Assembly (NCBI GenBank): GCA_949152475.1
Contig: OX424555.1
Coordinates: 97,559,515-97,623,514, forward strand
Reading direction: 5' to 3'
Origin: Terebella lapidaria
Taxonomy: Eukaryota > Annelida > Polychaeta > Terebellida > Terebellidae
DNA length: 64,000 nt
Shown: piece after piece, positions 19,084-59,000 of the stretch
Position numbering within the stretch: position 1 is the first letter of the stretch
Layout of the letters: the number at the start of each line of letters is the position of its first letter
Notes under the pieces: generated by a model
The model's input: only the letters and a program-made list of their open reading frames with translations
Told to the model about the DNA's origin: nothing
Database searches by the model: none
Translations under genes and position numbers: made by a program

Positions 19084-19684
19084 TACGGAGCCGCTGAAAG
19101 GACATGGAAGAAATATTTTTTGACATACGGTTATTGCGTTCCCTTGCAATAATATTGCGTTCCCTCGCAATATTATCGCGTTCCCTCGCAATCAGGATCG
19201 CGTTCCCTCGCGATCTTATTGCATTCCCTCGCAATCCGGATCGCGTTCCCTCGCAATCCAGATCGCATTCCCTCGCGATATTATCGCGTTCCCTCGCGAT
19301 AATATCGCGTTCCCTCGCATTCCGGATCGCGTTCCCTCGCGATCTTGTAGAATAACCTTCTCAGAAGTCATTGGCGTCAGCACAATGCGAGGGAACGCGA
19401 TCCAGAATGTGAGGGAACGCAATGAGATCGCGAGGGAACGCGATAATATCGCGAGGGAACGCGATAATATCGCGAGGGAACGCGATCTGGATTGCGAGGG
19501 AACGCGATCCGGATTGCGAGGGAATGCAATAAGATCGCGAGGGAACGCGATCCGGAAGACGAGGGAATGCGATAATATTGCGAGGAAACGCAATATTATT
19601 GCGAGGGAATGCGATAATATTGCGAGGGAACGCAATAAAAATGTGCTAAAAATATTTCTTCCATGTCCTCTCAGAGGCTCCGTA
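19084..19684. mobile_element. TACGG-terminus fold-back element 1
   Basis: It begins TACGGAGCC and ends GGCTCCGTA. The outer ~45 bp on each side form terminal inverted repeats sharing AGGACATGGAAGAAATA. The perfect 6-bp duplication AAATAT flanks it at 19078–19083 and 19685–19690. The interior is made of short repeats: GCGTTCCCTCGC units on the left half and GCGAGGGAACGC on the right, pivoting around 19350–19390, so almost the whole 601 bp could fold into one hairpin. There is no coding capacity. It shares terminus and duplication length with the element at 29207–30301. Confidence 0.8.
19120..19640. repeat. Inverted array of GCGAGGGAACGC units
   Basis: Roughly 12 units on each side, spaced about 15–20 bp, with variable joining words such as GATAATATC or GATCCGGAT that are themselves nearly palindromic. 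The open frames across this stretch (RSLAILSRSLAI-type repeats) are products of the repeat and not proteins. Confidence 0.85.
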
Positions 19685-28870: not shown

Positions 28871-29206
28871 ATTCTGAGTTGAAATATAAATAGGTGAAAA
28901 GATTGATCTATCTGTATTTTCGATATTTTATCAAACATGTCGAAATGGAAATCCATATAAAGAGATTTCAGTGGTGATTTTGAATTCGATCTTCAATAAC
29001 CTCGGAAGATCAGTGCAGCAATTTTGGTGGGGAAAAGAAAACAGTTGTGACTTGAGATTTAACATTTCTCTGGTAATCTTTTTTAGCCCTTGCTCTAGTT
29101 TTTCACACTTGACAGTCATATATTTGGGGCAACAGAGATGATAGGGCTACGGGGGATACACCCAAGCGGTCGTAGGCGACCGGAAGCGTCTAGTTATACA
29201 GGTAGT

Positions 29207-30301
29207 TACGGTGGCTCATATTCGCCAGATGGAGGAATGCACTTTTTTCTTTACAGCGTTATAACGCTGTAATACAGCGTTATAACGCTGTAATACAGCG
29301 TAATAACGCTCTAATTTACAGCGTAATAACGCTCTAATTTACAGCGTAATAACGCTCTAATTTACAGCGTAATTACGCTCTAATACAGCGTTATAACGCT
29401 CTATTACAGCGTTATAACGCTCTAATTTATAGCGTAATTACGCTTTAATTTACAGCGTAATTACGCTCTAATTACAGCGTTATTACGCTGTAATTTAGGC
29501 GTTATTACGCTGTAAATTACAGCGTTATAACGCTCTAATTTACAGCGTAATAACGCTCTAATTACAGCGTTATAACGCTCTAATACAGCGTAATAACGCT
29601 CTAATTAGAGTGTAATAACGCTGTAATTAGAGCGTAATTACGCTGCAAATTAAAGCGTAATTACGCTATAAATTACAGCGTTATAACGCTCTAATTTACA
29701 GCGTAATTACGCTCTAATTACAGCGTTATTACGCTCTAATTACAGCGTTATTACGCTGTAATTTACAGCGTAATTACGCTCTAATTACAGCGTAATAACG
29801 CTCTAATTACAGCGTTATAATGCTCTAATACAGCGTAATAACGCTCTAATTAGAGTGTAATTACGCTGTAAATTAGAGCGTTATAACGCTGTAATTTACA
29901 GCGTTATAACGCTCTATTACAGCGTAATAACGCTGTAATTAGAGCGTAATTACGCTGTAAATTACAGCGTTATAACGCTCTAATTTACAATGCCAGAGAC
30001 ATCATCGGACCTGCTAGTTCATCAGCTCAATCATTTGTAGGGAAATCTCAAAACTATTCTGATCTAGATATGTTTATTACAAATCACGATAATGGAAATA
30101 TGCTAGGAAGGTGAACGGTTTAATTTAGAGCGTAATAACGCTCTAAATTAGGGCGTTATAACGCTGTAAATTAGAGCGTTATAACGCTGTAAATTAGAGC
30201 GTTATAACGCTGTATTACAGCGTTATTACACTGTAATTAGAGCGTTATAACGCTCTAAAAAAAATTTGTGCTCCTCTATGTGGCGAATATGAGCTTCCGT
30301 A
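29207..30301. mobile_element. TACGG-terminus element 2 with palindromic body
   Basis: Starts TACGGTGGCTCATATTCGCC and ends with its inverted partner (GGCGAATATGAGCTTCCGTA), with inverted similarity over about 40 bp. The perfect 6-bp duplication GGTAGT flanks it at 29201–29206 and 30302–30307. The body is an array of the self-complementary word AGCGTTATAACGCT and variants, with one 120-bp unique segment at 29995–30117. Non-coding. It lies 13 bp from the end of Helitron-like copy B. Confidence 0.8.
29255..30258. repeat. Array of AGCGTTATAACGCT palindromes
   Basis: About 40 units of 20–24 bp; each holds a near-perfect 14-bp palindrome (AGCGTTATAACGCT, AGCGTAATTACGCT or the mixed AGCGTAATAACGCT) joined by CTAATTTAC-like links. 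Interrupted by unique DNA at 29995–30117. Confidence 0.9.
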
Positions 30302-30307
30302 GGTAGT

Positions 30308-36099: not shown

Positions 36100-39000
36100 A
36101 CCGCCATTTTTGCTTGGCAGCTTTGGATTTTGGTTCCCGGTGAATTCGTAGAATTTAGTCTGCAAACTAGACTTTTGCGTTATATTCTTACGGAATTTCA
36201 CCTGCCACGTTCATAGACATCGTTTTGTGTCTATTTGGATAAGTATTGGTCGATAGTTTGTTACTTGCTAGATCGTCAGCGATTTGTATAGCCAGTTCAC
36301 CCTATTATCGTCCATCCGTCGTACTTGATAGTGTATTTGTTGTTTACATCTATCAATAGTTCTACGTTAATTTTCTACTGTATATATTTTGTAAACGTAT
36401 ACTGTAGTTTATATATTCGTAGTCCTCTTAGGGTTCTTTTTCAGCGCGGTCTCAGGTTTGCGTATTTTGCCCGCCCTGTTACTGTGTGTGGTTAGTTCCC
36501 TTTCGTGATCATGACTTCACAATCCTGCCTTGGTACCGGTGCCATGGACGAACGTCCATGCCCGAAGTGTCTGGTCAATACCCTCCGAGGAGGGGAGAAA
36601 CACAGTTTGTGTTTCGACTGTTTAGACCATGGCCCGATATCTATGGAGGATTTGAGGTGTGATCTGTGCCGTTTCTGGCGTCCCTCTTCCTTCGTGCAGG
36701 CGACTGCAAAGTATTCCGAAGCCTCGTTGGCTCGTCGGGATGCTTTGAGGCTTGCGAAAGCTTCGGCTCCGCAAGTCCGCCAGTCGCCCATGGAGGTGGA
36801 GACTCCGCCTGTGACGACACAGATTGCGTCCGGTGTTAGCCAGCCCCTGGGGCTAACACAGGACATGGTCAACGCGGCTGTGCAATCCTTCTTTGCACAG
36901 TCGTTATCGTCCCTTCAGGGTCCCCTCCTGCCGGGTCTCTCTTCCCTGCTTGGACAGGGAGTCCCGGCCGGTTCTTCGGCTGCCCCTTCGTCGCAGGGAG
37001 AGCTTGCTCCCCCTGCTGGCAAGAAGTCGAAATCTTCTAAGAAGAAGGTTTCAGTTCTTGCCAAGGCGAAAGCAGCCAAGGAACCGCACTCCACCTTCGT
37101 CGTCCCTCAGTCGGGGCCGATCGAGGTGGAGGGGTCCGTCGTCTCTTCCCCTGGGCTTTCCAAGAAGAGGAAGCGTGCTTCCTCTAAGCGCCGTGGTGCT
37201 GAGACCACATCGATTTTCGATGTGGCTCAGGCTTCGTCCGACCTCTCGGTGGGCGACGATCAGGCTTCGGGCTTCGATCGGCGGAGCATCTTGGATGGCT
37301 CATTCGGGTCCTCGGTCTCGAGGTTCGAGGGGGAAGAGTTCCCTTTGTTTGGGGGTGAGGCTCTCGATCGTTCGTGCGATCGTGAGTCTTCACTTGGCGG
37401 TCGTGCTCCTGGTCCTCGATCAGGGCACGATCGGGCGGGTGGTGCTGGGGTCGTTCCTCAGGACCACTCAAGTCCTGTGTACGCGGATGTAAGTCGCCGG
37501 ACGGGCGCGATCGCTGAGCAGGCATTCCCTCGCCCGTCCTTTGATGTACCCTTGGGGTCATCGAGGTCTTCGATCGGACCTGTGAGGTCCAACGATCGGG
37601 GGGGTCGAGTGGAAGCTGATCAGGAGTCGTCCTCCTCGGAGGATGAGACTTCCGATCAGGCCGGGGGTTCTAACTTCCGGTGGGCTTTGGAGTCGGTCGC
37701 AAGGCGTATGGACTTGCCGATCGATGCTCCAGGGCCCTCACGGGGAACCGGTAGGTTCGCGTCGGCGCCAGTTCGTCGGCCGATCCGGCTCCCTGTGGCT
37801 CCCGCGTTGGTCAAGTCCTTCGACAAGATCAACAAGGGAGTTACGGCTAAGAAGGATGTGGCTCGTACGGAGTCGACATTCCCGACTAGCCGTGTTCGAC
37901 CTGAGTCGATCGACACCTATCGGACTGTAGAGTCCGAGGGTGGACATCAGACTTCCGTCCCGGTCGAAGACCCTAACCTTCACCTGCTTTCCCGGAAGCA
38001 GGGTACGGTCTGGTCAGCTTATGTGAAAAAGGCTCGCCTTTCTTACTGGCAGACGCTGTCTCATCAGTTGATGGGGCAGCTCTCGTTGACGGATCACCTG
38101 ACCACTTTGGTTCAGGAGTTTGTGGACGAGGCGGATCTGGAGGAGGGGAGTCGCGCCAACATTCATGCAGCACTCGGCGTCTTGGCCGGAGTGGTCCATG
38201 CTGCTGAGCGTGACAGTGCGCACCTGGGCGCACAATTGGATCTCACCATGCGTGATGCCGATCTCCGTCTGCTTGACGTGTCCGCTACGGACGTCGCTGA
38301 GCTACGTGGGAGGCCGCTTTTCTCAGGCTATACCTACGCCAACCTCTCTCGATCGGATATTTCCGTCATGCGGGAACATCTCCGGGATGAGGCTATGGCC
38401 AAGGCTTTGCTTGGGAAGTCGGCGGGGTCTGGGACAGGCAAGAAGACCAAGGGTCAGAAGCCTGCCCAACCTCAGGCACCACATGCACCCGCTTCTGCGC
38501 AGCCGCCCTTTCGGGGGGCGCAGCCTCCCCCTCCCCAGGGGGATGGCAAGCGTGGAGGCAAAGGGGGTGGACGCTTCAAAGGCAAAGGGAAATCTTCTGC
38601 TAAGAAGTGACTCGTTGCGGGAAAGCGTAGGCTCTGTGGAAGGTTCAGTTCTGTCGGAATTCGATCTTCCACAACCTGGTCCAGTCGGCGGACGCCTGGC
38701 TCAGTTCGTCCAGAACTGGAGCGATCTGGCGTCGTCAGACAATTCAGTCGTGGCATGGGTGAAGTTCGGTCTCACCTTCAGATGGGAGGCTGGAAAACCA
38801 CCGATCAGACCCAAAGCGTGGTTCTTCCCTGTGCCCGGCGATCGGGAAAAGTTTCAGCTTCTGCAGCACGAGGTGCAGCAGTTGCTAGAGAAACGTGCGA
38901 TCGAGGTGGTCAAGGACGAGAGAGGATTCTATTCTCTCATCTTCCTAGTGCCGAAAAAGACAGGCGGGTGGCGTCCCGTTTTCGATCTGTCAAACCTCAA

Positions 39001-41918
39001 CAAATTCCTGATCATACCCAGGTTCAAGATGGATTCGGCGCTTTCCGTTCAGAAAGCTCTGTCCAAGGGGAAGTGGGCAGTCAGTATCGACGTCAAGGAC
39101 GCGTACTTACATGTGCCCATACACCCAGCCGATCGGCGATACCTCAAGTTCGCCTTCGAGGGTTCGGTGTATCAGTTCAGGGTACTTCCTTTTGGAGTAG
39201 CCACCGCCCCTTACGTGTTCACCCGTATCGTAAGGACGATGGCGGCCAGGTTTCGATCGGTTGGAATTCAATTCCACCATTATATCGACGATTGGTTAAT
39301 CATAGCCGACTCCCCGTCTCAGGCTATAGAGCAATCCGGGTTCGTCCTCAGGTTGGCGACCAGCCTTGGCTGGATCCCCAATTGGGCGAAGTCTCATCTG
39401 TCCCCGACACAGAGGTTCGAGTATGTCGGGGTAGATTACGATCTAGAGCGAGGAGTAGCTCTTCCTCCGCGGAAGAGAGTTCTCAAGGCGATTGCGGCGA
39501 TGGAGGTCGCGCTGACGCAGTCGTCGATCACAGCTCGACAGTTTCTGTCCATCATCGGTCTGTTGGCGTCGATGGAGAAACAGGTGCCGTTCGGCAGGTG
39601 CTTCCTCAGACCCATTCAATGGTGTCTAGCGTTGCAATGGCGGATCCTCACCGATCGACTAGACCAAGTCGTATCGGTGGACGATCGTGCTCGGGAAGCA
39701 ATGCATTGGTGGCGGGACCATCGGAATCTTTTCCGAGGGATGCCACTGGCGGAGTATCTGCCCGATCGGACCTTCTTCACCGATGCGTCAGAATTGGCTT
39801 TGGGAGCTCATATGGACGAGCACGAACTCTCTGCTGTGTGGAACACGAGAGAGAGGGTGTTGCACATCAATGTCCTAGAGCTGTGAGCGGTGAGACGTGC
39901 GTTCGAGATCTGGGGGCCTCAGAGTCCCCCAGGGACGAAGTGGCTGGTCTTCACAGACAACAGCACAATAGTGGCGCACATAAACAAACAAGGTGGAACT
40001 CGGTCGAGTCAGCTTTGTTTGGAGGCCGAGTGTCTGATCAGGTTTGCCTTCAAGTACCGTCTGTTTATCAGGGCGAGGCACCTGCCGGGCCACAGGAATG
40101 TCCTAGCGGACGCTCTGTCGAGACCGGACAAGATCATAGGCACGGAGTGGAGTTTGCATCCGGGGGTGTTTCGGCGCGTTTGTCAGGCGTTCGGGACACC
40201 GAACATAGACCTGTTCGCAACCTCTCGGAATCACAAGCTCCCGGTCTACTTCTCACCTCTGCCAGAGAGCGAGGCACTGGCTGTGGACGCGATGTCTCAG
40301 TCGTGGGACGGGATGTTCGGGTATGCGTACCCGCCAACTCGGTTCCTAACAGAAGTGCTGCACAAGGTAGCCAGGTCTCAGTGCGAGATTCTGTTGGTGG
40401 CGCCATGCTGGCCGATGCAGGCGTGGTTCCCCCTGCTACTGTCCCTCCTGATCGATGTACCACGGGTTCTCCCGATCGAGGACAGGTTGCTGAAGCAACC
40501 GGGGCGGGATATATTTCACGATTCCGTCCACGTGCTCAAATTACACGTGTGGAGGCTATCGAGCGATCCTTCCAGGAGGCAGGATTTTCTCAGCAGGTGT
40601 CCGTACATCTCGCGAGAAAGAATAGGAGATTCTCCTCTAAAACGTATGAGGCTAAATGGAGAGTATTCGTACGTTGGTGTAACGGAAGGCGCATTGATCC
40701 GCTCTCTGCCCCTCTGAATGCAGTGCTAGACTTTCTCTGCTATCTCTTTGATAGGCTTAATTTGAAGCCTACTACGATCGAGGGATACAGGTCCATGCTG
40801 GGCCCTGTATTCCGTGCTAGGGGGATCGATTTAACTAATAATCGTATCCTTGCTGATCTCTTGGCGTCCTAGGACGCAAAGGCCACGGGGAGTTCCTACT
40901 CTACCGGATTGGGACATGGCTTTTGTGCTATATTGTCTTACTAAAGCACCTTGGGAGCCTCTCAAGGAAGTTTCCTTGCAGAGGTTAACTCTTAAGACTT
41001 TCTTGCTAGTTATGCTAGCAAGTGGTCGAAGACGCTCAGATGTCGCGGCGATCGACGTATCGCGAGTCGCATTTGGCGCGGATGGGTCCGTTTCCTTATA
41101 CCCAGTACGTGATTTTATGCCTAAAACACGTGCTGCAGTTGAGGGCGGGAAAGCGTTCTCCCCTATCGTAATTCCGTCACTGGGCGGTTACGTAGGACGG
41201 AATGAGCCGGACGCTCTATTGTGCCCGGTAAGAGCGCTGAAAATCTACATCGATCGTACCAGATCGATCAGGAAAGATCGCAAGCGGTTATTTATTTCCT
41301 ATCAGCCTAATAGGGCTACGGATATCTCCACAGCTACACTATCCCGATGGGTGAAGGTTGTAGTGAGGACTGTCTATGCGGAGTCAGGTGCTGACGATCG
41401 AGTCACTTACAAAATATCGTCCCACCAAATCCGACACATCTCGATGTCTTTGGCGGCCAGGTCGAATATTCCGTTGGAATATATCGTGAGGGCTGGAATG
41501 TGGACTAATTCTACGACATTCATCGGGTTCTATCTGTCCAATGCTGCCGAACTTCAGGACCAGTCGTCCAGATTTAGACTGGGTCCGCTGGTCGTAGCGC
41601 AAGCTGTTGTTTGAACCAGCGGGACAGAAAAGTCTTGGTTTTAACGTGCACGTGTATATACCGGTAAGCAACACTTTGTGTTTGTGTTTGAGTTCTTTAT
41701 GTTACGGTCTCAAGTAGAGTTCCGTTTTCCACCGATGGGTGAAGAAGAAATTCGTGCATGTCGGAGGCAAGCGATCGCACCGCTACGTGAGTATCTTTAT
41801 TATATTACTAAAGATATATCGAAAATGTAGCATTTTAGCGATTCGCTTGAAATCAAGACTATCGTCTGTTTTCATGACTCTCTAGCACTACTGCTCCACC
41901 GCCTATCCTTTGATTCTA

Positions 41919-47000: not shown

Positions 47001-50000
47001 GTGGTTTACGGTTCGTTGGCAGTCGGGTGTCGGCCTAGTGTCTGACACGTCCCGGACTTTACCGTCACAGGCCGCGTCTCGGGAGATTGAACTGAACCAA
47101 TACACCGAGCCAGGCCAAGGGGCGCCACAGGATGGGTCCTCACGCTTCTATCTCGGGTACGCATCGCACAAAAATTGTCAGTGTCCTACAAAAAAAGATT
47201 AGTCTATGATCAATTGTGAGTGTGAAATATGAAGTTTCACACACAAAACAATCGAATACACAAAATAGCTGACATCGTGAACAATAAATGATACTTATCA
47301 TGTATGAATTAAGGAATTATTTTCTAACTGGATGGTATCAAAAACCCATTATCGATTTCTGGCGGTACTCATGACTGACATTGTAGCAGCAGTACCTGTA
47401 TTGTAGCAGTACCTGTATTGTATCAGTACCTGTATTGTAGCAGTACCTGTATTGTATCAGTACCTGTATTGTAGCAGTACCTGTATTGTAGCAGCACCTG
47501 TATTGTAGCAGTACCTGTATTGTAGCAGTTCCTGTATTGTAGCAGCACCTGTATTGTAGCAGTACCTGTATTGTAGCAGCACCTGTATTGTAGCAGCACC
47601 TGTATTGTAGCAGCACCTGTATTGTAGCAGTACCTGTATTGTAGCAGCACCTGTATTGTAGCAGCACCTGTATTGTAGCAGTACCTGTATTGTAGCAGCA
47701 CCTGTATTGTAGCAGCACCTGTATTGTATCAGTACCTGTATTGTATCAGTACCTGTATTGTATCAGTACCTGTATTGTAGCAGTACCTGTATTGTAGCAG
47801 TACCTGTATTGTAGCAGTACCTGTATTGTAGCAGCACCTGTATTGTAGCAGTACCTGTATTGTAGCAGTACCTGTATTGTAGCAGTACCTGTATTGTAGC
47901 AGTACCTGTATTGTATCAGTACCTGTATTGTAGCAGTACCTGTATTGTAGCAGTACCTGTATTGTAGCAGTACCTGTATTGTAGCAGCACCTGTATTGTA
48001 GCAGCACCTGTATTGTATCAGTACCTGTATTGTAGCAGTACCTGTATTGTAGCAGCACCTGTATTGTATCAGCACCTGTATTGTATCAGTACCTGTATTG
48101 TAGCAGCACCTGTATTGTATCAGTACCTGTATTGTATCAGTATCTGTATTGTAGCAGTACCTGTATTGTAGCAGTACCTGTATTGTAGCAGTACCTGTAT
48201 TGTAGCAGTACCTGTATTGTAGCAGTATCTGTATTGTAGCAGCACCTGTATTGTAGCAGCACCTGTATTGTAGCAGCACCTGTATTGTAGCAGCACCTGT
48301 ATTGTATCAGTATCTGTATTGTAGCAGTATCTGTATTGTAGCAGCACCTGTATTGTATCAGTATCTGTATTGTAGCAGTATCTGTATTGTAGCAGCACCT
48401 GTATTGTAGCAGCACCTGTATTGTAGCAGCACCTGTATTGTATCAGTATCTGTATTGTAGCAGTATCTGTATTGTAGCAGCACCTGTATTGTAGCAGTAC
48501 CTGTATTGTAGCAGCACCTGTATTGTAGCAGTACCTGTATTGTATCAGTACCTGTATTGTAGCAGTACCTGTATTGTATCAGTACCTGTATTGTAGCAGC
48601 ACCTGTATTGTATCAGTACCTGTATTGTAGCAGCACCTGTATTGTAGCAGCAGTACCTGTATTGTAGCAGCACCTGTATTGTATCAGTACCTGTATTGTA
48701 GCAGTACCTGTATTGTAGCAGCACCTGTATTGTAGCAGCACCTGTATTGTATCAGTACCTGTATTGTATCAGTACCTGTATTGTATCAGTACCTGTATTG
48801 TAGCAGTACCTGTATTGTAGCAGTACCTGTATTGTAGCAGTACCTGTATTGTAGCAGTACCTGTATTGTAGCAGTACCTGTATTGTATCAGTATCTGTAT
48901 TGTAGCAGTATCTGTATTGTAGCAGTACCTGTATTGTAGCAGCACCTGTATTGTATCAGTATCTGTATTGTAGCAGTATCTGTATTGTAGCAGCACCTGT
49001 ATTGTAGCAGTACCTGTATTGTAGCAGCACCTGTATTGTAGCAGCACCTGTATTGTAGCAGCACCTGTATTGTAGCAGCACCTGTATTGTAGCAGCACCT
49101 GTATTGTATCAGTATCTGTATTGTAGCAGTATCTGTATTGTAGCAGCACCTGTATTGTAGCAGTACCTGTATTGTAGCAGCACCTGTATTGTAGCAGTAC
49201 CTGTATTGTAGCAGCACCTGTATTGTAGCAGTACCTGTATTGTAGCAGTACCTGTACTGTATCAGTACCTGTATTGTATCAGTATCTGTATTGTAGCAGT
49301 ATCTGTATTGTAGCAGTACCTGTATTGTAGCAGCACCTGTATTGTATCAGTATCTGTATTGTAGCAGTATCTGTATTGTAGCAGCACCTGTATTGTAGCA
49401 GCACCTGTATTGTAGCAGCACCTGTATTGTAGCAGCACCTGTATTGTATCAGTATCTGTATTGTAGCAGTATCTGTATTGTAGCAGCACCTGTATTGTAT
49501 CAGTATCTGTATTGTAGCAGTATCTGTATTGTAGCAGCACCTGTATTGTAGCAGCACCTGTATTGTAGCAGCACCTGTATTGTATCAGTATCTGTATTGT
49601 AGCAGTATCTGTATTGTAGCAGCACCTGTATTGTAGCAGTACCTGTATTGTAGCAGCACCTGTATTGTAGCAGTACCTGTATTGTATCAGTACCTGTATT
49701 GTAGCAGTACCTGTATTGTATCAGTACCTGTATTGTAGCAGCACCTGTATTGTATCAGTACCTGTATTGTAGCAGCACCTGTATTGTAGCAGCAGTACCT
49801 GTATTGTAGCAGCACCTGTATTGTATCAGTACCTGTATTGTAGCAGTACCTGTATTGTAGCAGCACCTGTATTGTAGCAGCACCTGTATTGTATCAGTAC
49901 CTGTATTGTATCAGTACCTGTATTGTATCAGTACCTCTATTGTAGCAGTACCTGTATTGTAGCAGTACCTGTATTGTAGCAGTACCTGTATTGTAGCAGT

Positions 50001-53000
50001 ACCTGTATTGTAGCAGTACCTGTATTGTAGCAGTACCTGTATTGTAGCAGTACCTGTATTGTAGCAGCACCTGTATTGTATCAGTACCTGTATTGTAGCA
50101 GTACCTGTATTGTAGCAGTACCTGTATTGTAGCAGTACCTGTATTGTAGCAGCACCTGTATTGTAGCAGCACCTGTATTGTATCAGTACCTGTATTGTAG
50201 CAGTACCTGTATTGTAGCAGCACCTGTATTGTATCAGTACCTGTATTGTAGCAGCACCTGTATTGTATCAGTACCTGTATTGTATCAGTATCTGTATTGT
50301 AGCAGTATCTGTATTGTAGCAGTACCTGTATTGTAGCAGCACCTGTATTGTATCAGTATCTGTATTGTAGCAGTATCTGTATTGTAGCAGCACCTGTATT
50401 GTAGCAGCACCTGTTTTGTAGCAGCACCTGTATTGTAGCAGCACCTGTATTGTATCAGTATCTGTATTGTAGCAGTATCTGTATTGTAGCAGCACCTGTA
50501 TTGTATCAGTATCTGTATTGTAGCAGTATCTGTATTGTAGCAGCACCTGTATTGTAGCAGCACCTGTATTGTAGCAGCACCTGTATTGTATCAGTATCTG
50601 TATTGTAGCAGTATCTGTATTGTAGCAGCACCTGTATTGTAGCAGTACCTGTATTGTAGCAGCACCTGTATTGTATCAGTATCTGTATTGTAGCAGTATC
50701 TGTATCGTAGCAGCACCTGTATTGTAGCAGTACCTGTATTGTAGCAGCACCTGTATTGTAGCAGTACCTGTATTGTATTGTAGCAGTACCTGTATTGTAT
50801 CAGTACCTGTATTGTAGCAGCACCTGTATTGTGGCAGCACCTGTAATGTAGCAGGACCTGTATTGTAGCAGTACCTGTATTGTATCAGTATCTGTATTGT
50901 AGCAGTATCTGTATTGTAGCAGTATCTGTATTGTAGCAGTACCTGTATTGTAGCAGTACCTGTATTGTAGCAGCACCTGTATTGTAGCAGTACCTGTATT
51001 GTATTGTAGCAGTACCTGTATTGTATCAGTACCTGTATTGTAGCAGCACCTGTATTGTGGCAGCACCTGTAATGTAGCAGGACCTGTATTGTAGCAGTAC
51101 CTGTATTGTATCAGTATCTGTATTGTATCAGTATCTGTATTGTAGCAGTATCTGTATTGTAGCAGTACCTGTATTGTAGCAGTACCTGTATTGTAGCAGC
51201 ACCTGTATTGTAGCAGTACCTGTATTGTAGCAGTATCTGTATTGTAGCAGCACCTGTATTGTATCAGTATCTGTATTGTATCAGTATCTGTATTGTAGCA
51301 GTATCTGTATTGTAGCAGTACCTGTATTGTATCAGTATCTGTATTGTAGCAGTATCTGTATTGTAGCAGCACCTGTATTGTATCAGTACCTGTATTGTAT
51401 CAGTACCTGTATTGTAGCAGTACCTGTATTGTAGCAGCACCTGTATTGTAGCAGTATCTGTATTGTAGCAGCACCTGTATTGTAGCAGTATCTGTATTGT
51501 AGCAGTACCTGTATTGTAGCAGCACCTGTATTGTATCAGTATCTGTATTGTATCAGTATCTGTATTGTAGCAGTACCTGTATTGTAGCAGTACCTGTATT
51601 GTAGCAGTAGCTGTATTGTAGCAGTATCTGTATTGTAGCAGCACCTGTATTGTAGCAGTACCTGTATTGTATCAGTATCTGTATTGTAGCAGCACCTGTA
51701 TTGTAGCAGTACCTGTATTGTAGCAGTACCTGTATTGTAGCAGTATCTGTATTGTAGCAGTACCTGTATTGTAGCAGTACCTGTATTGTAGCAGTACCTG
51801 TATTGTAGCAGTACCTGTATTGTAGCAGCACCTGTATTGTAGCAGTACCTGTATTGTAGCAGTACCTGTATTGTAGCAGCACCTGTATTGTAGCAGTACC
51901 TGTATTGTAGCAGTACCTGTATTGTAGCAGCACCTGTATTGTAGCAGTACCTGTATTGTAGCAGCACCTGTATTGTAGCAGTACCTGTATTGTAGCAGCA
52001 CCTGTATTGTAGCAGTACCTGTATTGTAGCAGTAGTACCTGTATTGTAGCAGTACCTGTATTGTAGCAGTACCTGTATTGTAGCAGTACCTGTATTGTAG
52101 CAGTACCTGTATTGTATCAGTATCTGTATTGTAGCAGCACCTGTATTGTAGCAGCACCTGTATTGTAGCAGCACCTGTATTGTAGCAGTACCTGTATTGT
52201 AGCAGCACCTGGATTGTAGCAGCACCTGTATTGTAGCAGTACCTGTATTGTATCAGTACCTGTATTGTATCAGCACCTGTATTGTAGCAGCACCTGTATT
52301 GTAGCAGCACCTGTATTGTAGCAGCACCTGTATTGTAGCAGCACCTGTATTGTAGCAGCACCTGTATTGTAGCAGCACCTGTATTGTAGCAGTACCTGTA
52401 ATGTAGCAGTACCTGTATTGTAGCAGTACCTGTATTGTAGCAGCACCTGTATTGTAGCAGTACCTGTATTGTAGCAGTACCTGTATTGTAGCAGTACCTG
52501 TATTGTAGCAGCACCTGTATTGTATCAGTACCTGTATTGTAGCAGTACCTGTATTGTAGCAGTACCTGTATTGTAGCAGTACCTGTATTGTAGCAGCACC
52601 TGTATTGTAGCAGCACCTGTATTGTAGCAGTACCTGTATTGTAGCAGTATCTGTATTGTAGCAGCACCTGTAATGTAGCAGTACCTGTATTGTAGCAGCA
52701 CCTGTATTGTAGCAGTACCTGTATTGTATCAGTACCTGTATTGTAGCAGTACCTGTATTGTAGCAGCACCTGTATTGTAGCAGTATCTGTATTGTAGCAG
52801 TATCTGTATTGTAGCAGCACCTGTATTGTAGCAGTATCTGTATTGTAGCAGTACCTGTATTGTAGCAGTATCTGTATTGTAGTAGTACCTGTATTGTAGC
52901 AGCACCTGTATTGTAGCAGCACCTGTATTGTAGCAGTATCTGTATTGTAGCAGTATCTGTATTGTAGCAGCACCTGTATTGTAGCAGCACCTGTATTGTA

Positions 53001-56000
53001 CCAGTACCTGTATTGTAGCAGTATCTGTATTGTAGTAGTACCTGTATTGTAGCAGCACCTGTATTGTAGCAGCACCTGTATTGTAGCAGCACCTGTATTG
53101 TAGCAGCACCTGTATTGTAGCAGCACCTGTATTGTAGCAGTACCTGTATTGTAGCAGTACCTGTATTGTAGCAGCACCTGTATTGTAGCAGCACCTGTAT
53201 TGTAGCAGTACCTGTATTGTAGCAGTACCTGTATTGTAGCAGCACCTGTATTGTAGCAGCACCTGTATTGTAGCAGTACCTGTATTGTAGCAGTACCTGT
53301 ATTGTAGCAGTACCTGTATTGTAGCAGTATCTGTATTGTAGCAGTATCTGTATTGTAGCAGTATCTGTATTGTTGCAGTACCTGTATTGTAGCAGTACCT
53401 GTATTGTAGCAGTACCTGTATTGTAGCAGTACCTGTATTGTAGCAGCACCTGTATTGTAGCAGTATCTGTATTGTAGCAGCACCTGTATTGTAGCAGTAC
53501 CTGTATTGTATCAGTATCTGTATTGTAGCAGCACCTGTATTGTATCAGTATCTGTATTGTAGCAGTATCTGTATTGTAGCAGCACCTGTATTGTATCAGT
53601 ATCTGTATTGTAGCAGTACCTGTATTGTAGCAGTATCTGTATTGTAGCAGTATCTGTATTGTAGCAGCACCTGTATTGTAGCAGTACCTGTATTGTATCA
53701 GTATCTGTATTGTAGCAGTATCTGTATTGTAGCAGCACCTGTATTGTAGCAGTACCTGTATTGTATCAGTATCTGTATTGTAGCAGTATATGTATTGTAG
53801 CAGCACCTGTATTGTAGCAGTACCTGTATTGTAGCAGCACCTGTATTGTAGCAGCACCTGTATTGTATCAGTATCTGTATTGTAGCAGTATCTGTATTGT
53901 AGCAGCACCTGTATTGTAGCAGTACCTGTATTGTATTGTAGCAGTACCTGTATTGTAGCAGTACCTGTATTGTAGCAGCACCTGTATTGTAGCAGCACCT
54001 GTATTGTAGCGGTACCTGTATTGTAGCAGTACCTGTATTGTAGCAGTACCTGTATTGTAGCAGCACCTGTATTGTAGCAGTATCTGTATTGTAGCAGTAT
54101 CTGTATTGTAGCAGCACCTGTATTGTGGCAGCACCTGTATTGTATTGTAGCAGTACCTGTATTGTAGCAGTACCTGTATTGTATTGTAGCAGTACCTGTA
54201 TTGTATCAGTACCTGTATTGTAGCAGCACCTGTATTGTAGCAGTACCTGTATTGTAGCAGTACCTGTATTGTAGCAGCACCTGTATTGTAGCAGCAGTAC
54301 CTGTATTGTAGCAGTATCTGTATTGTAGCAGCACCTGTATTGTATCAGTACCTGTATTGTAGCAGCACCTGTATTGTAGCAGTACCTGTATTGTATCAGT
54401 ACCTGTATTGTAGCAGCACCTGTATTGTAGCAGTACCTGTATTGTAGCAGTACCTGTATTGTAGCAGTACCTGTATTGTAGCAGCACCTGTATTGTATCA
54501 GTACCTGTATTGTATCAGTACCTGTATTGTAGCAGTACCTGTATTGTAGCAGTACCTGTATTGTAGCAGTACCTGTATTGTAGCAGTACCTGTATTGTAG
54601 CAGCACCTGTATTGTAGCAGTACCTGTATTGTAGCAGTACCTGTATTGTAGCAGTACCTGTATTGTAGCAGCACCTGTATTGTAGCAGTACCTGTATTGT
54701 ATCAGTACCTGTATTGTAGCAGTACCTGTATTGTAGCAGTACCTGTATTGTAGCAGCACCTGTATTGTAGCAGCACCTGTATTGTAGCAGTACCTGTATT
54801 GTATCAGTACCTGTATTGTATCAGTACATGTATTGTAGCAGTACCTGTATTGTAGCAGCACCTGTATTGTAGCAGCACCTGGATTGTAGCAGCACCTGTA
54901 TTGTAGCAGTACCTGTATTGTAGCAGTACCTGTATTGTAGCAGTACCTGTATTGTAGCAGCACCTGTATTGTAGCAGTACCTGTATTGTATCAGTACCTG
55001 TATTGTATCAGTACCTGTATTGTAGCAGTACCTGTATTGTATCAGTACCTGTATTGTAGCAGCACCTGTATTGTAGCAGCACCTGTATTGTAGCAGCACC
55101 TGTATTGTAGCAGTACCTGTATTGTAGCAGTACCTGTATTGTAGCAGCACCTGTATTGTAGCAGCACCTGGATTGTAGCAGCACCTGTATTGTAGCAGCA
55201 CCTGTATTGTAGCAGTACCTGTATTGTATCAGTACCTGTATTGTAGCAGTACCTGTATTGTATCAGTACCTGTATTGTATCAGTACCTGTATTGTAGCAG
55301 CACCTGGATTGTAGCAGCACCTGTATTGTAGCAGTACCTGTATTGTATCAGTACCTGTATTGTATCAGTACCTGTATTGTAGCAGTACCTGTATTGTAGC
55401 AGCACCTGTATTGTATCAGTACCTGTATTGTAGCAGCACCTGTATTGTAGCAGCACCTGTATTGTATCAGTACCTGTATTGTAGCAGCACCTGTATTGTA
55501 GCAGCACCTGTATTGTAGCAGCACCTGTATTGTATCAGTACCTGTATTGTAGCAGCACCTGTATTGTAGCAGCAGTACCTGTATTGTAGCAGCACCTGTA
55601 TTGTAGCAGCACCTGTATTGTAGCAGTACCTGTATTGTATCAGTACCTGTGTTGTAGCAGTACCTGTATTGTAGCAGCACCTGTATTGTATCAGTACCTG
55701 TATTGTAGCAGCACCTGTATTGTAGCAGCACCTGTATTGTAGCAGCACCTGTATTGTAGCAGTACCTGTATTGTAGCAGCACCTGTATTGTAGCAGTACC
55801 TGTATTGTATCAGTACCTGTATTGTAGCAGTACCTGTATTGTATCAGTACCTGTATTGTAGCAGCACCTGTATTGTATCAGTACCTGTATTGTAGCAGCA
55901 CCTGTATTGTAGCAGCAGTACCTGTATTGTAGCAGCACCTGTATTGTATCAGTACCTGTATTGTAGCAGTACCTGTATTGTAGCAGCAGTACCTGTATTG

Positions 56001-59000
56001 TATCAGTACCTGTATTGTAGCAGCACCTGTATTGTAGCAGTACCTGTATTGTAGCAGTACCTGTATTGTAGCAGTACCTGTATTGTAATGTATTGAGACG
56101 CTCCCCTTGTGTCCCGTAGTTACGTGGCAGGCGTCCTGACCCGAGAAAGACTCCCCGGCTTCATGCGACTGCTGTGGTTCGCCTGCCGTGGGAATATCTT
56201 CATCAGACATGCCGAGATCGACGAACCACTGGAGGACGCGCTCACTGTTAGTGTCGCATAAACTTGTCACTTTCTTTGTGCTCACTGGTTGGTACTCATG
56301 TACACCGTGAAGTACCAAATTCAGAAATACGTCTTTCTACTAATCTGATTCAAAGTTATTACCTGTTAACTATAGTGACAATATTTACAGAGCTACTGTA
56401 CTTAACTTTTGAAAAAAAACATTTCAGTACACATGTTTTTCAGGGAGAGAGGGTCCACAAAGTTGTGTTCATTGCGTTCTTCCAAGGAGAGAATCTCAAA
56501 GCTCGAGTCAAGAAAGTCTGCGAAGGGTGCGGACTCAAAAATTTATTACCAATTTCATGTTATATTTTCTGTAAATCTATTGTTTCCCAGCATTTTAAAC
56601 AATTGAAGGATGTGTACGAGTGTTATGGTCAATGAATCTGTCAGTCAGTTACTGATATCCCTTGACAATATTCTGTATCACAGCTACAAAGCGACGCTGT
56701 ACCCCTGCTCCGAGTCCCAAGATGAGAGACGAGAGGTGGCGATTGGTGTCTTGACTCGACTTCAGGATATCGAAACAGTAAAGTCTCACTGTTTCTAGAC
56801 ATTTTTACTTGGTATTGCAAGTAAAGTTACATTGCAGTCCATTGCATGTACAATCATTACAAATCTGGCATGGAAAATGATACTGACCAGAAAACAATTG
56901 AAATATTCCTAGATATATACATGAGCATGTTGTGAAAATATTGACGGCAGCTGAGCACTTACTAGACACATCATACCCTTGCCTTGGACAGTCTAATAAC
57001 AGAAAAAACCCAGCCACAACATGTGTACAATCTTCCACAAACCCTCCGTCTTGCCCAGGTTCTCCAGAAATCCCTGGAACAGAAGCGCCGACTGCTGGGG
57101 ACCGTGGCCCAGAACTGGAACTCCTGGAACGTCAAGGTTCTCAAGGTCAAGGCCATCTACCACATCATGAACATGTTCCACACAGAGGGCAAGAACTACA
57201 TCGCCGAGTGCTTCATCCCGACACGAGAGGTGGACACAGTCCAGGCCATCCTCAACCGGGCCACGGTCAGCATGGGATAGGGGTGCTGTAGGGTATAGTG
57301 TGTTTTGTCCTCAACAGGGCCAAGGTCAGCATGGGACAGGGGTGCTGTAGGGTATAGTGTGTTTTGTCCTCAACAGGGCCAAGGTCAGCATGGGACAGGG
57401 GTGCTGTAGGGTATAGTGTGTTTTGTCCTCAACAGGGCCAAGGTCAGCATGGGACAGGGGTGCTGTAGGGTATAGTGTGTTTTGTCCTCAACAGGGCCAA
57501 GGTCAGCATGGGACATGGGTGTTGTAGGGTATGGTGAGGTGTTTGGTCAACCTGGCCACTGACACAACTTCAAGCTGCGGTTTACAGTAATAAAGCTCAT
57601 AAACAGGGAAAGAGAGATGAAGTAGTTTTGTAGATGATGTTCCTAGCCATGATGATTACACAGTGTCTGCAATGATATATTTCACTGTCTCCAGGAGAAC
57701 GCCGGTAGCTCAGTACCGTCCATTGTACACCCTGTACAAACAGCGGAGACACTTCCGACCTTCAACCGTACCAACAAGTTCACAGGCGCTTTCCAGACAA
57801 TCATTGATGCGTATGGAACGGCCAACTACAAGGAAGTGAACCCGGGTCAGTGAAGAACATGATCTGGAGCTTAGATCTGTACAATATAGTTTCACTTCCA
57901 CGTACTTAGACAAGCTATCCATATAACAAAGTCACTGATTAGTGCTGGTGGGTATGTAAATGAATCATGCAGTCCTGGACAACCTTGGATTAGTGTCTCT
58001 TCCTTGATTACATAACATTGTGTAATTGTATCTATTATGTTTTGGTTCCAGCTCCGTTTGCCATCATAACGTTCCCGTTCCTGTTTTCTGTGATGTTTGG
58101 AGACTTCGGTCACGGGATTCTGATGTTTCTCTTTGCTGTGTGGATGGTTGTACGAGAGAAGCAGCTTCTGCCCGCAGCAAAAGGTGGAGAGGTCAGTCAT
58201 CCATTCGATTCAGGGCTTTGGTGTCAGGGGAAAAAACTGGTTAATTTCAAATACTGTAGCTAGTTCATAAAATTTACAAACATCTAGTAGCTTGGTTGGA
58301 AGTTTGTGAATAATTTTGCAGATACATATACTTTTGATCATATACCTTTATTAGGTAACCTTTCAGTGAGTAGTGATATTGCTGTTTATATCAGATATTT
58401 GGTATCATCTACGGCGGTCGATACATCATACTGTTAATGGGGGCGTTTTCAATCTACTCCGGACTGTTGTACAACGACGCGTTCTCCCGATCCATCAACA
58501 TCTTCGGCTCGGGATGGAGGGCACCACCTGGGTGAGTGGGGAGGTGCGGGAGGGGGTTATATGAGGATTATAGCAGGAAAACTATGTTCTCAACCAGTGG
58601 AAATTCATGAGTGAGAAAATATTGCTGGAGTATTTATAAATTAGAATATCATGCTCAGTATTTTATGTTCCGTGTTTCAAATCAGTTCCATGGAACAATG
58701 ATCTGTACTGATACATTTTCCAGGAATATCGACATGAATCTCAGGACCATCCAACTAAACCCTACGAACTCCAGTGTGTGGCTTGGACAACCTTATCCTT
58801 TCGGGATTGATCCTGTAAGCTGCTTCCACTGCATCGATTCAAACAAATCTGCTAAACCAGGGTTTGTCGTTCGATATCTCGATGTTTTATTGTGCTGTTC
58901 TCAGGTCTGGCAGTCTACCGTGAACAAAATCACATTCACAAACTCGTTCAAGAAGAAGATATCGGTGATATTCGGAGTCGCTCAGATGTTGTTAGGTGTG

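Follow-up and report, generated by a model that had tools for sequence, protein, structure and literature searches.

The locus studied here raises the question of what moves an element whose body is a run of short palindromes, and of where such a body comes from. It lies in a window of 64,000 nucleotides (C1:97559515-97623514) of the Terebella lapidaria genome, which was searched as 761.6 Mb in 438 contigs. Starting from what is directly observed, namely the ends, the 6-bp duplications, the copy number, coding relatives of similar build and array motifs specific to each family, we consider it probable that this is a non-autonomous IS3EU-type transposon, mobilized in trans, and that its body is a retained subterminal array, most likely of transposase-binding sites. 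An odd palindromic satellite would thereby become a probable component of the machinery of transposition.

The window element and its copies

An element with an exact GGTAGT duplication had been placed at 29201-30307 in an earlier note on this DNA, and these coordinates are exact: GGTAGT flanks both sides of a 1095-bp element at 29207-30301 (Table 1). Its terminal inverted repeats are imperfect, with 26 of the first 30 bases (counted by eye) agreeing between the ends; since the right end reads TACGGAAGCTCATATTCGCCACATAGAGGA inward, it is to be written TACGGAAGCTC, and not TACGGTGGCTC. The body, described earlier as about 40 palindromes, holds 39 units of the form GCG-(A/T)6-CGC when one mismatch is allowed in GCG/CGC, and the full unit of the arrays is TTA-S-AGCGTWATWACGCT-S-TAA. 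Spacing is 21–23 bp in 37 of the 38 intervals, the remaining one, of 163 bp, spanning the unique spacer. Within this spacer a frame of 40 codons followed by TGA (29992-30111, ARDIIGP...MLGR) is open, and it is common to many copies of the family (L089, L010, L026, L034 and others), with some residues differing between subfamilies; at a guess, it could be what is left of a coding interior since lost.

Table 1. Positions, within the window, of element 1 and of the parts of the window element (element 2).
Feature	Positions	Strand	Remarks
Element 1 (family E), 601 bp, duplication AAATAT both sides	19084-19684		
Target-site duplication, left copy, GGTAGT, 6 bp	29201-29206		
Left terminal inverted repeat TACGGTGGCTCATATTCGCCAGATGGAGGA	29207-29236	+	First 21 bases: 347 genome places, control 0
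Main palindromic-unit array, core AGCGTWATWACGCT, spacing 21-23 bp	29251-29989		
Unique spacer, common to other copies (about 97-99% in closest)	29990-30113	+	
Second array, shorter, units as in main array	30114-30259		
Right terminal inverted repeat, inward reading TACGGAAGCTCATATTCGCCACATAGAGGA	30272-30301	-	
Target-site duplication, right copy, GGTAGT, 6 bp	30302-30307		

Genome counts place the shared TACGG-type ends beyond chance: TACGGTGGCTC has 1551 matches, compared with 107 when the pattern is reversed, and the terminal 21-mer of the window family, TACGGTGGCTCATATTCGCCA, occurs at 347 places against none for its reversed control. Within the window alone, the 11-mer with two mismatches is no commoner than in shuffled sequence (8 found, 10.28 expected). 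Thirty-seven places with the exact 21-mer were examined, comprising the first 30 listed of the 347, six from three regions with opposed ends, and the window itself. At 17 of them (16 elements) a partner end is present and the 6-bp duplication is exact, and at a further 4 the duplication has a single mismatch; given several possible partner ends, the script kept the one giving the best duplication. Another 8 places have a partner end but two or more mismatches in the duplication, and at the remaining 8 no partner end was found within the sequence examined. The first 30 listed places alone contribute 13 exact duplications and 3 with one mismatch, so that the 6-bp duplication anticipated for other copies is indeed found in them. 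Two of the loci with exact duplications, L010 and L011, have identical flanks 10 kb apart and may represent a single insertion that was later duplicated.

The prediction that other copies would also have bodies of repeat arrays was borne out. The 19 window-family elements that are distinct in sequence and have at most one mismatch in the duplication range in length from 179 to 3632 bp, and the family core is present in all 19, with 3 to 38 cores GCGTWATWACGC each. At L073, one window-family element lies inside the right terminal repeat of another, with an inner duplication AATATG and outer flanks GAGAAG on both sides. Termini of this family also recur in the same orientation about 2.92–2.95 kb apart on three contigs (C4:24004127/24007074/24010026, C8:38774070/38777021 and C9:35701784/35704701), as if the element lay within a tandem unit of about 2.95 kb.

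Terminus families, target sites and array motifs

We distinguish seven terminus families: A, the window family; B (L059-L066 and L070); C (L079/L080); D (L068/L069/L071); E, element 1; F (L081/L082); and G (L083/L084). The earlier note held that elements 1 and 2 have the same ends and belong to one mobilizing system. TACGG is indeed shared, but the two have little beyond it in common at their ends and the termini otherwise belong to different families; TACGG is thus a superfamily signature, and a common system stands at the superfamily level, not at that of a single family. Families A to F start with TACGG and family G with TACAG, which is not TAYGG. Compared by eye over its first 21 bases, the terminus of family F agrees with that of the window family at 18. 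The terminus of element 1, TACGGAGCCNCTGANAGGACATGG, occurs at 999 genome places (control 0), and its body is made of GCGTTCCCTCGC-type units, mostly 21–22 bp apart, in two arrays that mirror each other, the units of the left half being oriented opposite to those of the right. Three element-1 termini stand in the same orientation about 7.35 kb apart at C1:53270070, 53277406 and 53284784.

Across families A to F, 37 elements were lined up, and the 6-bp duplication is exact in 30 and has one mismatch in 7, most of these rows having been pre-selected by a rule that permits one mismatch. Other tests are less biased. Fifteen opposed TACGGTGGCTC pairs within 5 kb were read by eye among the matches listed, and a 6-bp duplication accompanies 13 (exact in 10, with one mismatch in 3) but not the other two, L072 and the pair in L024; of the long coding elements with both ends read, which were chosen by position, 3/3 have exact duplications. 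The target preference is weak, roughly S-W-W-W-W-S: of the 37 rows, in which the row of element 1 is out of register, 27 start and 22 end with G or C, and the inner positions are mostly A/T.

The main arrays have lags of 21–23 bp in family A, 21 and 43 in E, 21 in C, 20 in F, 20.5 (41) in G and 20 and 61 in D, compared with 18/32/50/100 in B; with lags of about 20–23 bp, six of the seven families are therefore near two helical turns. When tested against shuffled units, dyad symmetry is found in five of the seven families at nominal, uncorrected P values of 0.001 for A (8 of 9 pairs), 0.018 for F, 0.02 for D, 0.029 for G and 0.047 for C, whereas E (P 0.22) and B (P 0.47) do not pass. Unit sequences were entered by hand from TRF and column counts, and the test favors family A, whose two W positions pair by definition. 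Family B, whose elements have TACGGTGGCTC.TTACCGCCAATTA ends, is the exception to the palindromic pattern, with long arrays of 18/32/50-bp period lacking dyad symmetry.

Array motifs follow the terminus families, a comparison in which only the off-diagonal zeros are informative, as the motifs were derived from the same families. Hence the body is not arbitrary cargo, and the earlier proposal of a system that accepts arbitrary bodies fails, the more plainly so with the same core in 19/19 window-family elements. Among the short delimited elements only L067 has family C ends, and it lacks an exact family C core; family C cores are contained in the elements at L004 and L007, which are not delimited.

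Coding relatives and their transposases

The Pfam model rva_4 (PF24764) has at least 133 matches in the genome, with 150 of 246 candidates scored, and these merge by eye to at least 111 loci. Two related families include transposase-coding elements, of 19.9 kb in one family and of 10.3 kb, as two copies, in the other. These have TACGGTGGCT ends, exact 6-bp duplications and, within either end, an array whose motif is particular to the family; a third coding family has a terminus and an array at one end. The longest of these, at C1:12384421-12404322 in family C, spans 19,902 bp between opposed TACGGTGGCTC ends with ATTCGC on both sides and encodes an rva_4 transposase at C1:12400268; inside each end is an array of CGAGCGCTCG-type units with a spacing of about 21 bp, and about 5.2 kb of the interior is unread. 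L080 is a second copy, 96% alike, and the match between the two stops exactly at the terminus.

Four more loci from two other transposase groups (L081-L084) were fetched without prior knowledge of their ends, and in all four an array follows the upstream terminus, which reads TAC(G/A)GTGGCT. L081/L082, of family F (the 421-aa group), have the terminus TACGGTGGCTGATATATGCCATA and a 20-bp unit ACGCGTACTTAATATTAAAT, and L083/L084, of family G, have the terminus TACAGTGGCTTATTTGTGCCA and a 20.5-bp unit. In family F, whose other ends were located by position, one coding copy (C1:52942706-52953024, interior partly unread) measures 10,319 bp with CTATGG on both sides, and another (C2:34319383-34330582) measures 11,200 bp with ACAGAC on both sides; the 881-bp difference is a nested 875-bp element of the same terminus family together with its 6-bp duplication. 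The family F motif is present in the coding elements and also in this nested non-coding element. In family G, the terminus TACAGTGGCTTATTTGTGCCATATTTA lies about 2 kb upstream of 3/3 listed 385-aa loci, with arrays at both loci that were fetched; the far end of its coding elements was not found.

The three transposase ORFs, from families C, F and G, match rva_4 above the curated cut-off. All three also match NCBIfam IS481 (E 4.5e-8, 3.2e-4 and 5.8e-4) and one matches NCBIfam IS3 (E 1.9e-6), far below cut-off in each case, and weaker NCBIfam matches are to IS630 and ISNCY. A catalytic pattern, ..HIDG..RAD(H/R)GTEN..NQRIES.., was read by eye in the translations. Among solved structures, the family F transposase has no match at E up to 1. 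A separate genome query with NF033577, for which 67 of 5964 candidates were scored, yielded what we presume to be retrotransposon integrases, and was set aside.

The coding element with the same ends that the earlier note had called for was met with in part: related families provide one with closely similar ends, and none was found for the window family itself. Comparison of 302 of the 347 exact terminus places with the 111 rva_4 loci found no coding partner, a single rva_4 neighbor lying inward within 20 kb where chance alone would give 0.88. That place, considered as a coding partner (C15:19324999), turned out to hold an array element of the ordinary kind (L089). A search for transposase remnants in the window family gave none, the family C protein matching only L079-L084 among the loci compared and the window.

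Origin and possible role of the arrays

Fungal IS3EU elements are described as having 6-bp duplications, terminal inverted repeats of over 30 bp and TAYGG..CCRTA ends (in the excerpts of PMC12730594), and TA..TA ends, duplications usually of 6 bp and kinship to IS3/IS481 are given for IS3EU, which is treated together with GingerRoot, in the excerpts of PMC10045372. The elements described here resemble IS3EU in their ends and duplications and, in the coding relatives, in their transposase: the window element has TACGG..CCGTA ends and a GGTAGT duplication, 6-bp duplications accompany 3/3 long coding elements and, with at most one mismatch, 13/15 opposed short pairs, and an IS3/IS481-like DDE transposase is indicated by the weak NCBIfam matches, which come from the related families C, F and G and not from the window family. 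They differ in their arrays of palindromes of about 21 bp, and in having non-autonomous members made of these, neither of which appears in the published descriptions as excerpted from PMC10045372 and PMC12730594. Palindromic subterminal arrays in IS3EU are likewise missing from the titles and abstract openings among the matches listed, a set that has the GingerRoot paper and Repbase outside it. GingerRoot reportedly goes back to Cerbin et al. 2019.

Dada-type transposons had been put forward as the source of the enzyme, and the 6–7 bp duplications that the earlier note ascribed to them would suit the present elements. Dada inserts at fixed sites in multicopy RNA genes. Here, by contrast, the duplicated targets vary from copy to copy, with the S-W4-S preference alone in common, and the coding relatives encode rva_4/IS481/IS3-like transposases. 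Together with the IS3EU-type ends, the varied targets and the transposases of the relatives lead us to reject Dada as the source, and we give it next to no credence.

Under the IS3EU reading, an IS3/IS481-like DDE transposase supplied in trans would cut the TACGG..CCGTA ends, and insertion would proceed through a 6-bp staggered cut with weak target preference. The body would then be the subterminal array that coding relatives have beside both of their ends, and not foreign cargo, with the coding interior lost and the ends and arrays kept while the unit number varied. Palindromic units about two helical turns apart could place transposase dimers on one face of the DNA and so load the ends, in which case the arrays would most likely be multiplied transposase-binding sites. 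On this reading more units may help mobility, the window family probably came about when a coding interior was lost, and a sister transposase, not found here, presumably moves it.

The arrays could instead be neutral, the element being an IS3EU-type non-autonomous transposon in which the palindromes are a satellite generated by slippage or unequal exchange and have no part in transposition. Unit number does vary widely between copies, from 3 to 40 cores, copies often differ in length by close to a whole number of units, and the long tandem arrays of family B lack dyad symmetry. Among indels no longer than 120 bp, 251 of 372 are near multiples of 22 (22% expected), and among those of all lengths 270 of 394 (46% expected), figures to which we give little weight because the alignment of periodic sequence favors gaps as long as the unit and the 71 pairs lack independence. 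Against neutrality, arrays with a period of about 20–23 bp, each with its own motif, recur in six of the seven families and adjoin the ends in coding elements too, and the unit of the window family keeps both arms, with core variation that is symmetric. On balance we find a purely neutral origin unlikely, though it deserves to be taken seriously.

A self-complementary body might also act as a foldback, forming cruciforms, or hairpins in single strands, that take part in excision, replication or genome defense. The main array has many inverted repeats and folds as a single strand at -309 kcal/mol, compared with a mean of -107 for 20 shuffles, but such a score is expected of any palindromic array, because shuffling destroys the repeats. 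Across 567 units of the window family, both arms are conserved and the variable core positions are placed symmetrically, with little covariation between the arms: pair -2/13 is complementary at a frequency of 0.298, where independence predicts 0.435, most other arm pairs are near the expectation, and pair 4/7 exceeds it (0.582 versus 0.507). This combination of conserved arms, symmetric variation and little covariation is more in keeping with two protein half-sites than with a hairpin. Selection for hairpins thus finds little support, the covariation it calls for being mostly absent, and we judge the hairpin explanation improbable. With arrays inside both inverted ends and little or no coding sequence the element can still be called foldback-type, which is a descriptive class and not a lineage.

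For repeats of this placement, close parallels are the foldback-like transposons Galileo and Tetris: Galileo, which carries tandem repeats inside its terminal repeats as additional transposase-binding sites, with higher transposition efficiency suggested as the benefit, and the non-autonomous Tetris copies, which vary in repeat number (both in the excerpts of PMC4079207). Tandem repeats within terminal repeats are what these share with the present elements. According to the same excerpts, Tetris repeats are about 220 bp long and its duplications 8–10 bp, as against 20–23-bp units and 6-bp duplications here, and the Galileo transposase has a THAP domain, whereas that of the coding relatives is IS3/IS481-like. 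In Crassostrea gigas, two of 52 satellites, CgiSat35 and CgiSat47, are annotated DNA/IS3EU, but their units measure 690 and 129 bp, and no short palindromic units are described in the excerpts of PMC8268682.

A broader generalization, which we put forward tentatively and with somewhat more doubt than belief, is that in IS3EU-type families each transposase lineage may read its own palindrome of two helical turns, present in many repeats within the ends, with non-autonomous copies serving as portable arrays that attract or titrate transposase. If this is true, the array motif would be a readable code for the DNA-binding domain of the transposase, co-evolving with it. One genome here offers several families, three of them with coding members and each with its own short array motif, and joint change of a DDE transposase and its binding sites becomes testable. 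Such elements would also provide a possible route by which transposons spread short palindromic satellites through a genome.

Two further features of the window deserve mention. At 47388-56087 a 17-bp unit is repeated in tandem about 509 times over 8.7 kb, an array that is open in several frames, and at 36496-41614 overlapping long ORFs resemble, by eye, a reverse transcriptase and a tyrosine recombinase of DIRS/Ngaro-like type.
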